Of a stretch of 64,000 nt of DNA, positions 61,530 to 64,000 are shown piece after piece (the stretch's first letter is position 1; each line of letters starts with the position of its first letter). This DNA is from Sneathiella aquimaris (GTDB taxonomy: Bacteria > Pseudomonadota > Alphaproteobacteria > Sneathiellales > Sneathiellaceae): assembly GCF_026409565.1 (NCBI RefSeq), contig NZ_CP112881.1, forward strand, positions 62,001-126,000. The letters are read 5' to 3'. The translations under genes and the position numbers were made by a program. The notes beneath the pieces were generated by a model. It had not been told where the DNA came from and did not search any database. It saw only the letters and a program-made list of their open reading frames with translations.

Positions 61530-62346
61530 AGGATGCCGCATATACTGGATGAAAAAGCCGGGTTACTGGCAGAAGGCCGGTGTGGGTCTTCGCAGATGGG
61601 CGTCGGTCAGTTTTGCACCAATCCGGGTGTGGTTGTTGCCGTGAAAGGCCCCGCACTGGACGCTTTTAAAGCGCAATCTGCCAACGTTCGGAAAAAGGCA
61701 GTCGCCCTGCGCATGCTCACGAACCGTAATGCACAGGCCTAACATGAAACAACCCGGGCCTATAATACCGATGACCGCTTCACTTGCCTGCTGGCAGCTG
61801 AAGAAACTACTAATCCATTTTGTGCCATCCCGGGGATTTATGGTACAGACTTTGCCACGTGGCAAAAACACCCCGATCTGGCCGAAGAAATTTTTGGCCC
61901 CTCAGCAATCATCATTGAATGCCAGGACTTAGCGGAAATGGAAATGGCAAGCGCGGCTTTTGTCGGTCAGCTTACTGGCACCGTGAATATGTCTGAAAAG
62001 GATACAGCGGCAGTGGCTAAACTGATGCCTCATCTGGAACGCAGTTGTAGCCGCGTTTTGGTCAACTATTTTCCGACCGGTGTCGAGGTCTGTCATGCGA
62101 TGGTTCACGGTGGCCCCTATCCGGCGAGTACTGATGCCCGGTCCATCTCCGTTGGTACACTGGAAAATCGAACGTTTTGTGCGTCCCATCAGCTACCAGA
62201 ATATGCCAGAGGCGCTATTGCCTGATGGTCTGAAAAGTGACAATCCGCTGAATATTGATCGCTTGATAAATGAGAAAATGACCAAAGGCACCGTCTGGTT
62301 TGGACGGCGCACCCTCTCCTTAAAAGAGCAGTTTCTGGCCATTTGA
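61530..62346 (+). pseudogene. Broken 2-oxoglutarate semialdehyde / NADP aldehyde dehydrogenase, C-terminal half
   Basis: Frame 61533 reads GVGQFCTNPG, the catalytic Cys region of 2,5-dioxopentanoate (alpha-ketoglutarate semialdehyde) dehydrogenases. A TAA at 61740-61742 interrupts the frame. The same frame then continues with the C-terminal half (EEIFGPSAIIIE, NYFPTGVEVCHAMVHGGPYP). Near 62160 the homology shifts by one base to give RFVRPISYQNMPEALLP and the C-terminus to 62346. The N-terminal half is absent. The gene is dead by three lesions. Confidence 0.8.
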
Positions 62347-62787
62347 TATCAGGAGGCTGGCGGAAAATAATATGAAAGAGCTCTCTTTCTGGACAAAGCC
62401 TTTGAATTAAGAAACGGGAGAGCGGTGTGCGACAGACCCCCTTTCAAAAGCCTCTTCTCAGCTTGTCCTCTTGTGAAGTTGGAGGCCTCTTGCTGACCCG
62501 CAACATAATCAAAGTGACAGTCGAACTGTGGGAAACATGCCCTGACAGCAGTTGAGGTTGGAGCTGTTCTCAGATCGCAGTCAACCTGTCATGCTGACGG
62601 ATGTCCACTTTATATCCGGGATATTGAACGCTACCAGACCGCGCCTCGGTGGGAAATCATTGAAAAAGGTTGGCAGAGGCATTAGCTAAACCAGTAGAAA
62701 CACGGTATTTCCTGTTGATACTCCTCCTTGAGCGCGGGAATTCAGAGCGATGAAACCTTAAATTTAATATGGAGAAGCTTTCGGATT
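62347..62787. other. Intergenic region before the amidoligase
   Basis: A 441-base stretch with no supported gene. A short frame just before 62684 (DIERYQTAPRWEIIEKGWQ) could be a further remnant but is not recognised. The amidoligase promoter is probably here. Confidence 0.4.
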
Positions 62788-63801
62788 ATGTCATTTCAAC
62801 GACCTCCGATAACGGACAATCCAGATAATGAGGGGCGACGAGCCGGGTTTGAGTTTGAATTTGCGGATGTGAATATTCAAACCTGCTCTGAGATTATCGC
62901 TGATCTGTTCGAGGGTAAGATCCAATACAAAAACGCGCTGGAAGCCGAGGTGACCGATACTCCAATGGGGCGTTTCAAGGTTGAGCTGGATGCCCAGATG
63001 TTAAAAAGCCTGGCCGCTAAACTTGAAATAAAACAGCCTGTTGAAGAGGGCAGTCTTTTGGATATGAATCAGATCCGCGCAGCGCTAAGTGCCCGAATGG
63101 GTCAAGCTGCAGGGATGATGGTTCCTTATGAAATTGTAACACCGCCAATGTCCTTCGACCAGCTTCCAAAGCTGGAAATCTTGCGTCAGAAACTCCAGCA
63201 AAAGGAGGCCAAGGGAACCCGGTCAGCGTTTGTCAATGCGTTTGGAATGCATATAAATCCTGAAGTGGCTTCGGAAAAGGTCTCTTATATTCGCGATGTT
63301 CTTCGCGCCTTTTTAATTCTATATCCGTGGCTGAAGAAAGTCATGCGGATCGATTTGCCCCGCCGGATGCTGACCTATATCGACCCCTTTCCTGACGCTT
63401 ATGTTAAACTGGTGCTACAGGATGACTACGCGCCTTCACTGGATCAGTTCATCGAAGATTATCTGGCGCATAACCCAACCCGCAACCGAGCCCTTGATTT
63501 GTTGCCTCTTTTCGCCCATCTGAAGCCGTCCATGTTGGACGGGCTGGACGAAGGGCAACGTAAGTTGGTGAAAGCCCGACCAGCATTTCACTATCGCCTC
63601 CCGAATTGTGAAATTGACGATCCGGACTGGCGTATAGCGCGAGACTGGAATTACTGGATTGAAGTGGAAAAACTGGCAAATGATCCGGACAAGCTGGGGT
63701 CTATGGCTGCTGATTATCTGGGATTTCAAGGGAACGGTCTTCGTATCTTCAATGCCGACTGGTCCACAGAAGTAGCAAAAAAGTTAGGATATGACGCTTA
63801 G
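62788..63801 (+). CDS. Putative amidoligase (glutamine-synthetase-like fold)
   Basis: This 337-aa member of the amidoligase family (COOH-NH2 ligase fold) has the N-terminal GFEFEF acidic motif for metal/ATP, the PYEIVTPPMSFDQLPKLEIL block and FVNAFGMHINPEV. These enzymes are predicted to form amide or isopeptide bonds on peptides or metabolites. ATG 62788 follows GGAGAAG at 62771. The following glutamine amidotransferase gene overlaps by 11 bases, so the two act together. The substrate is unknown. Confidence 0.8.
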   Translation: MSFQRPPITDNPDNEGRRAGFEFEFADVNIQTCSEIIADLFEGKIQYKNALEAEVTDTPMGRFKVELDAQMLKSLAAKLEIKQPVEEGSLLDMNQIRAALSARMGQAAGMMVPYEIVTPPMSFDQLPKLEILRQKLQQKEAKGTRSAFVNAFGMHINPEVASEKVSYIRDVLRAFLILYPWLKKVMRIDLPRRMLTYIDPFPDAYVKLVLQDDYAPSLDQFIEDYLAHNPTRNRALDLLPLFAHLKPSMLDGLDEGQRKLVKARPAFHYRLPNCEIDDPDWRIARDWNYWIEVEKLANDPDKLGSMAADYLGFQGNGLRIFNADWSTEVAKKLGYDA

Positions 63802-64000
63802 AAAAAAGAGAGTTTTAATTGGAGTGACGGGCCCGGAAAAAGGGGGCCGAGTGCCTTGGTGGTGTGTAAGATTGGGAGTTTGGCTCGTCGGTGGACAAGC
63901 CCATCGCATAACCCCTGAAAAACAGGAACGCCCGCTGGATCATTATTCAGGGTTCATCATCACCGGTGGCAGCGATGTCCATCCCGAATTATATGGAGAC
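63791..64000 (+). CDS. Class I glutamine amidotransferase (peptidase C26-like), N-terminal part
   Basis: Seventy codons are visible before the window ends. They start MTLRKKRVLIGVTGPEKGG and reach the GFIITGGSDVHPELYG motif, typical of gamma-glutamyl-gamma-aminobutyrate hydrolase-like PF07722 proteins. The catalytic Cys lies beyond the edge. The start overlaps the amidoligase stop region by 11 bases. Amidoligase-amidotransferase pairs have been predicted to work as ligase and hydrolase in peptide or metabolite modification. Confidence 0.82.
   Translation, partial: MTLRKKRVLIGVTGPEKGGRVPWWCVRLGVWLVGGQAHRITPEKQERPLDHYSGFIITGGSDVHPELYGD

Follow-up and report, generated by a model that had tools for sequence, protein, structure and literature searches.

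A PF12224 amidoligase and a PuuD-like hydrolase as a candidate gamma-glutamyl ligase/hydrolase switch in Sneathiella aquimaris

In the PuuA/PuuD putrescine route of E. coli, ligation is followed later by hydrolysis of the gamma-glutamyl amine. A pair made up of a PF12224 amidoligase and a GATase-like thiol peptidase was reportedly predicted from gene neighbourhoods by Iyer et al. in 2009, and is said to be described likewise in the Pfam text. Two systems acting on aniline and 1-naphthylamine, AtdA1/AtdA2 and NpaA1/NpaA2, resemble the pair reported here in that a GS-like ligase adjoins a GAT-like enzyme that undoes its product (PMC11335346). AtdA1 forms gamma-glutamylanilide, which is hydrolysed in turn by the GAT-like AtdA2, keeping the toxic gamma-glutamyl amine low; the source recounts this hydrolysis from an earlier paper, and calls the same role likely for NpaA2 (PMC11335346). 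Phages described in two further sources, UFV-P2 and its LUZ24-like relatives and the Arthrobacter phages of cluster AL, carry an amidoligase (PF12224 in UFV-P2) with a GATase or AIG2-like gene (PMC3890496, PMC5513430).

The present locus lies at the end of a 64,000-base window of Sneathiella aquimaris, the window being the whole stretch of DNA that was analysed, bases 62001-126000 of the 3.94-Mb single-contig genome (Table 1). The pair is a further instance of the kind predicted in 2009. How does it compare with the described systems? The partner enzyme shares a PuuD-like C26 fold with PuuD itself (structure 6vtv). Unlike PuuA, which is a glutamine synthetase (GS) relative, the ligase belongs to PF12224, and near the pair no PuuB gene was recognised, only a remnant of an aldehyde dehydrogenase (ALDH) gene. 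The Atd and Npa systems use a GoaS-type ligase, a GS-I relative, and a dioxygenase that consumes the product (PMC11335346), whereas a PF12224 ligase with no conserved consumer gene is found here. The phage sets differ in the partner: a class-II GATase with an ATP-grasp gene in the UFV-P2/LUZ24-like set and an AIG2-like gene in cluster AL, in contrast to the C26 gene of the window (PMC3890496, PMC5513430). A search of the open-access literature found neither an experimental study of the pair nor a product for the ligase.

Table 1. Features of the amidoligase locus in window coordinates. L002 is a stretch of the same genome that reaches past the window end; L027 is the locus with the nearest relatives of both proteins.
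Feature	Position	Strand	Remarks
Amidoligase (PF12224), 337 aa	62788..63801	+	Open from ATG at 62788 to stop at 63801; intact; probable gamma-glutamyl ligase
Class-I GATase-like / Peptidase_C26 hydrolase, 235 aa	63791..64000, on to 64498 (L002:5791-6498)	+	Complete gene
GGAGAAG, plausible ribosome-binding site	62771..62777	+	10 bases before the amidoligase ATG; read from the sequence
Aldehyde dehydrogenase remnant, decayed upstream DNA	61785..62009	+	tblastn with the L027 ALDH: 31.7% identity, E 6e-5

A preliminary description of the window had reported an amidoligase gene overlapping a class I GATase gene by 11 bases beside decayed DNA, and this holds. The start of the hydrolase gene at 63791 precedes the amidoligase stop at 63801, its product matches both the C26 and the GATase models, and the DNA from 61.5 to 62.4 kb consists of short frames, with stops in all three forward-strand frames and the ALDH remnant; four pieces of this stretch gave no Pfam match at E 0.01. 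The remnant, to which the ALDH of plasmid SC52 is a weak match (E 0.022 over 31 aa), probably lies outside the ligase/hydrolase unit. The same description placed the rest of the system beyond the window; only the end of the hydrolase gene, 498 bases, is found there. No further members of the two-gene unit were found, the upstream side being decayed DNA and the downstream side debris and transposase fragments. The first 850 bases or so 3' of the pair hold no convincing gene, and beyond them lies a 297-aa frame with no Pfam match, then two transposase fragments, the first of IS240 type and the second of IS110 type, with a TVP38/VTT gene on the opposite strand in between. The ATP-grasp, peptidase or small peptide genes that the preliminary description proposed to look for in the following kilobases did not turn up: by eye, none fitting the pair was recognised among frames of at least 90 aa over 13.5 kb downstream, nor was an amine oxidase or NTN-hydrolase recognised among the downstream frames of L002. 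The TVP38/VTT gene (L002:10138-10812, minus strand) lies about 3.6 kb past the pair between the two transposase fragments, and given the distance its presence may be coincidence. Further on, to judge from the translations, L002:12832-17677 may hold a cluster for copper handling: a gene resembling multicopper oxidases comes first, and behind it stand metal-binding, thioredoxin-like, SCO-like and cytochrome-c-biogenesis-like genes.

The amidoligase product matches PF12224 (Amidoligase_2; E 3.2e-59, 201 bits against a cut-off of 22), its sole Pfam match at E 0.001; among the NCBIfam models none matched at E 0.01. The GFEFEF motif and the GS-type fold claimed for it earlier are borne out by the sequence and by the structural model, respectively. 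No sequence match to the glutamine-synthetase families (PuuA, GoaS, GS-I) was found, and the protein resembles those ligases at most in mode of action. For an AlphaFold2 model (pLDDT 92.8, pTM 0.91), VIA-align ranked the 1-naphthylamine GS first (8wwu; Z 13.0, rmsd 3.1, 207 residues aligned), tied with many other GS rows at Z of about 12-13 over some 190-219 residues; folds missing from the VIA-align list were not counted as evidence. With Foldseek the sole match under 0.001 was a plant glutamate-cysteine ligase (2gwc, E 8.6e-4), which superposes poorly (TM 0.27, rmsd 18), and Dop and GS came next. On these models a glutamine-synthetase-like fold is predicted. Residues D68, E115, N157, R232, D237, R264, H268 and R270 are invariant in alignments of 20 and of 47 rows; G61, P113 and R192 are likewise among the invariant columns over 47 sequences, and R17, G20, E22 and E24 are invariant in the 20 rows and nearly so in the 47.

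The partner matches Peptidase_C26 at E 9.2e-46 (156.8 bits against a cut-off of 20.5), and also the class-I GATase model at E 1.3e-14, the scores being 157 bits for C26 versus 55 bits for GATase. Residues Cys105, His212 and Glu214 are invariant in two alignments, of 16 and of 32 rows. Lin1909, SpuA and PuuD are its solved relatives. Since the gene runs on past the end of the window, a structure model was built from the L027 orthologue (pLDDT 92.4). The nearest folds to this model are again PuuD, Lin1909 and SpuA (E 3e-22 to 2e-16), and the best ammonia-donating subunit is GMP synthase subunit A, at 2e-13. The partner scores below the PuuD equivalog cut-off (NCBIfam PRK11366; 82.3 bits versus 266), and it matches PHROG family 7218 at E 1.6e-22. 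As modelled, it resembles the stand-alone gamma-glutamyl-amine hydrolases PuuD and SpuA more than an ammonia-donating amidotransferase, and a C26 fold by itself would also be compatible with a glutaminase role.

Is the association of the two genes more than a local accident? A C26 gene is adjacent and on the same strand in 109 of 118 close-family rows, across several phyla, which argues that the pairing is not due to chance. These rows comprise L002, the best 80 of at least 569 relatives and 37 further loci, so that the sample leans to close relatives, and two genomes are included twice (L037/L166 and L088/L138). Where a gap is given the genes usually overlap, and because the longest frames were used overlap may be overcounted. 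Distance matrices for ligase and hydrolase correlate with r 0.79 over 105 pairs, and 500 permutations reached 0.08 at most; by this sequence measure the two are tightly co-inherited. In the phylum of L041, all 25 loci from L195 to L219 and also L177 are paired and L220 is unpaired, among the matches listed; L221 is a weak match outside the amidoligase family of the window. The nine rows without an adjacent C26 gene are L029, L047, L071, L081, L084, L099, L145, L147 and L164. Eleven plasmid records match the ligase, and among the seven loci viewed three are paired (SC52, D. shibae and Q. alkalisoli) and four have no C26 gene directly downstream (Rhodovastum, A. argentinense, Indioceanicola and Microvirga), these four ligases all being more divergent, at 31-35% identity. 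From the unpaired plasmid ligases, L220 and the nine rows, it follows that the ligase can occur with no hydrolase linked to it. The genome of Marinobacter halophilus holds two ligase copies, a short one without a hydrolase (L081) and a complete, paired one (L178). On the Azospirillum argentinense plasmid (L260) the unpaired amidoligase lies some 2-3 kb from undecaprenyl-diphosphate phosphatase and DedA genes.

Relatives of the ligase occur in 5 of 24 genomes of the window's genus, 18 of 289 of its class and 22 of 398 sampled genomes of its phylum (about 5%), the window's own genome being included each time. PF12224 of any subfamily was found in 17 of 297 genomes in the phylum of L099, 28 of 296 (about 9%) in that of L041 and 5 of 194 in that of L086. 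Among IMG/VR contigs no ligase relative could be confirmed, and phage records yielded none; a phage origin of the ligase is thus unsupported, despite the partner's PHROG match. A role in anti-phage defence is also unsupported, as PADLOC gave no match for either protein at E 0.01.

A different arrangement is found at two loci where the hydrolase has been replaced. In L099, a Geobacteraceae MAG, the ligase gene overlaps a gene for a 158-aa protein of the gamma-glutamyl cyclotransferase (GGACT) family (PF06094, E 8e-14) and there is no adjacent C26 gene; a GGACT gene is placed likewise in L185 (PF06094, E 7e-12), which belongs to the phylum of L099. The two ligases share 78% identity, and a quick tree of 55 rows nests them with the C26-paired ligases of L091 (Salinivibrio) and L086 (Halothece), with SH-aLRT support of 99. 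A constraint placing L099 and L185 with seven other rows of their own phylum was rejected (AU p 1e-48). The swap, seen in two genomes of one clade and at the ligase locus only, counts as one event. It is new here, and it occurred inside one bacterial clade. C26 hydrolases and GGACT proteins have unrelated folds, and the chemistry common to them is the gamma-glutamyl amide bond. It is mainly because unrelated gamma-glutamyl enzymes alternate behind one ligase that we prefer a gamma-glutamyl product.

Do the surrounding genes name a substrate? Immediate neighbours were scanned in 93 downstream and 92 upstream frames, after 20 of 113 and 20 of 112, respectively, had been dropped by eye as antisense-looking, short or duplicate. 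No conserved transporter or enzyme that would name a substrate was found among them. The commonest immediate downstream Pfam family is VTT_dom (9 of 93), followed by Redoxin and AhpC-TSA with five each and others with two; upstream, VTT (3 of 92) is level with six other families. Eight of the nine downstream VTT genes are of the YqaA type and sit directly behind the hydrolase gene, and in an alignment of six YqaA-type genes the identity to E. coli YqaA was 35-43%. Thirteen of 17 VTT genes fell within 1.2 kb of the pair, a zone amounting to 17% of the searched DNA (p 1e-7), and counted as arrangements 5 of 9 were near the pair (p 0.01), where the HMM seeds had been picked in part for nearness to the pair and the grouping into five arrangements was made afterwards. 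At p 0.01 this link, which is an addition of the present analysis, is only suggestive. The window genome's own YqaA gene lies far from the pair, at 3.88 Mb. From the YqaA side, 1.5 kb on each side of the 30 best YqaA loci held no amidoligase-family gene; they held gshA once, so that the link between YqaA and glutamate-cysteine ligase seen in E. coli is not general. The redoxin genes of L042, L065, L089 and L101 (Halomonas/Vreelandella), thiol-peroxidase-like by sequence, are on the opposite strand downstream of the pair and probably represent one inherited arrangement.

We think it reasonably likely that the pair is a self-contained switch, in which an ATP-dependent gamma-glutamyl ligase is opposed by a hydrolase. 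The amidoligase would use ATP to link glutamate, through its gamma-carboxylate, to the amino group of a small molecule or of a lipid or peptide that carries an amine. The C26 enzyme would hydrolyse the gamma-glutamyl amide by means of a Cys-His-Glu triad, resetting the amine. We infer this ligase/hydrolase logic from the AtdA1/AtdA2 precedent, and here no consuming enzyme is conserved. The preliminary description had it that such pairs were predicted by comparative genomics to make or trim amide or isopeptide bonds; the families and the idea of the prediction stand, and the chemistry can be narrowed to a gamma-glutamyl amide by the PuuD-like partner and the GGACT swap. A glutamine-dependent amidotransferase, in which the C26 enzyme would release ammonia from glutamine and the amidoligase would amidate a carboxylate, as in MurT-GatD, would suit the adjacent, often overlapping genes and the strong co-inheritance, as expected of a 1:1 complex, and the partner does fit the class-I GATase model. 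We consider it unlikely, however, for the partner's C26 score is far above its GATase score, the nearest folds are PuuD, Lin1909 and SpuA, some ligases have no adjacent partner, and a GGACT protein occupies the partner's position in two genomes. We know of no ammonia-donor role for GGACT.

Two other readings draw on the neighbourhood. The pair might be what is left of a Puu-like route of amine degradation, with the ligase, the aldehyde dehydrogenase and the C26 enzyme in the roles of PuuA, PuuC and PuuD, a route now broken in the window genome. The pair does have an ALDH gene as its direct upstream neighbour in L027, the sister locus, and on plasmid SC52, and one 0.7-1.5 kb upstream in L048, L073 and L068, and the remnant is present in the window, yet among the scanned loci ALDH is the immediate upstream neighbour in only 1 of 92, and chance neighbours are to be expected from so large a family. 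Putrescine degradation through gamma-glutamyl intermediates was also the outcome that the preliminary description held would speak against it; no amine-oxidase family with two or more members occurs among the scanned neighbours, despite the ALDH remnant upstream, and we regard the route as very improbable. A system for isopeptide modification of peptides or proteins, as predicted for other amidoligases, seems scarcely less doubtful. It can point to phages, which pair amidoligases with class-II GATase and ATP-grasp genes or with AIG2-like genes (PMC3890496, PMC5513430), and to PF12224 ligases L179-L182 and L184, which lie beside a protein of about 170 aa and a class-II GATase-like gene. Against it, no ATP-grasp family with two or more members was found among the scanned neighbours, the ligase has no viral relative in the collections named above, and the peptidase families with at least two members, M48 (two downstream, a count affected by the duplicated genomes) and LexA-type S24 (three upstream), are not likely to be functional partners. 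The set in L179-L182 and L184 (phylum of L099, among the matches listed) is a different amidoligase system, built on another PF12224 subfamily; the two of its class-II GATase-like genes that were scanned, from L179 and L184, show weak GlmS similarity, and EgtC in L184.

Two narrower assignments were dropped. Synthesis of glutathione amide, suggested by the presence of Ectothiorhodospira among the carriers, does not suit a pair that also occurs in Balneolota and Bacteroidota, which to our knowledge are generally without glutathione. Folate polyglutamylation was considered since FolB is encoded upstream on the D. shibae plasmid; phmmer with FolB found none in frames of at least 90 aa across the 118 rows.

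How did S. aquimaris come by its copy? The nearest relatives of both window proteins are those of L027 (55% identity for the ligase, 54% for the partner), and in the quick 55-row tree the window ligase is sister to that of L027 (support 100), apart from the four other copies of its own genus; forcing it to group with these was rejected (AU p 4e-5). The failure to group with the genus copies, together with the transposase fragments and decayed genes nearby, suggests that the window copy was probably acquired horizontally, and this non-vertical origin is an addition of the present analysis.

A further addition is an association with salt. Ectoine synthase is encoded in 22 of 38 pair-bearing genomes (39 are known; carrier G087 was left out), and is missing from the window's own genome. 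In a draw of 200 genomes from the phylum, 29 had ectoine synthase over the cut-off, 7 of them known carriers of the pair, so that 22 remain among about 189 other genomes. Fisher's test gives p of about 4e-9 when genomes are counted and about 4e-5 when genera are, for comparison groups that are approximate (about 189 non-carriers; 14 of about 100 genera) in that the carriers in the draw are known only where listed. The association is confounded by kinship. It agrees with the marine, hypersaline and soda-lake names that are frequent among the relatives listed.

What would a gamma-glutamyl switch be for? A long shot is a glutathione-independent gamma-glutamyl cycle by which salt-adapted bacteria would reversibly cap an amine osmolyte or an aminolipid. 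The VTT/DedA protein (of COG1238/YqaA or TVP38 type) would carry this compound, capped or uncapped, through the membrane, and the PuuD-like hydrolase or the cyclotransferase would close the cycle. The COG1238 subfamily, with YqaA as its E. coli model, is described as little known, with uncharged or positively charged lipids as its proposed cargo (PMC10127716). If the VTT neighbour is functional, it would offer a chemical lead for this DedA subfamily. As for the pair itself, the partner swap turns a generic amide bond into a concrete prediction, namely that the bond made and undone would be a gamma-glutamyl amide.
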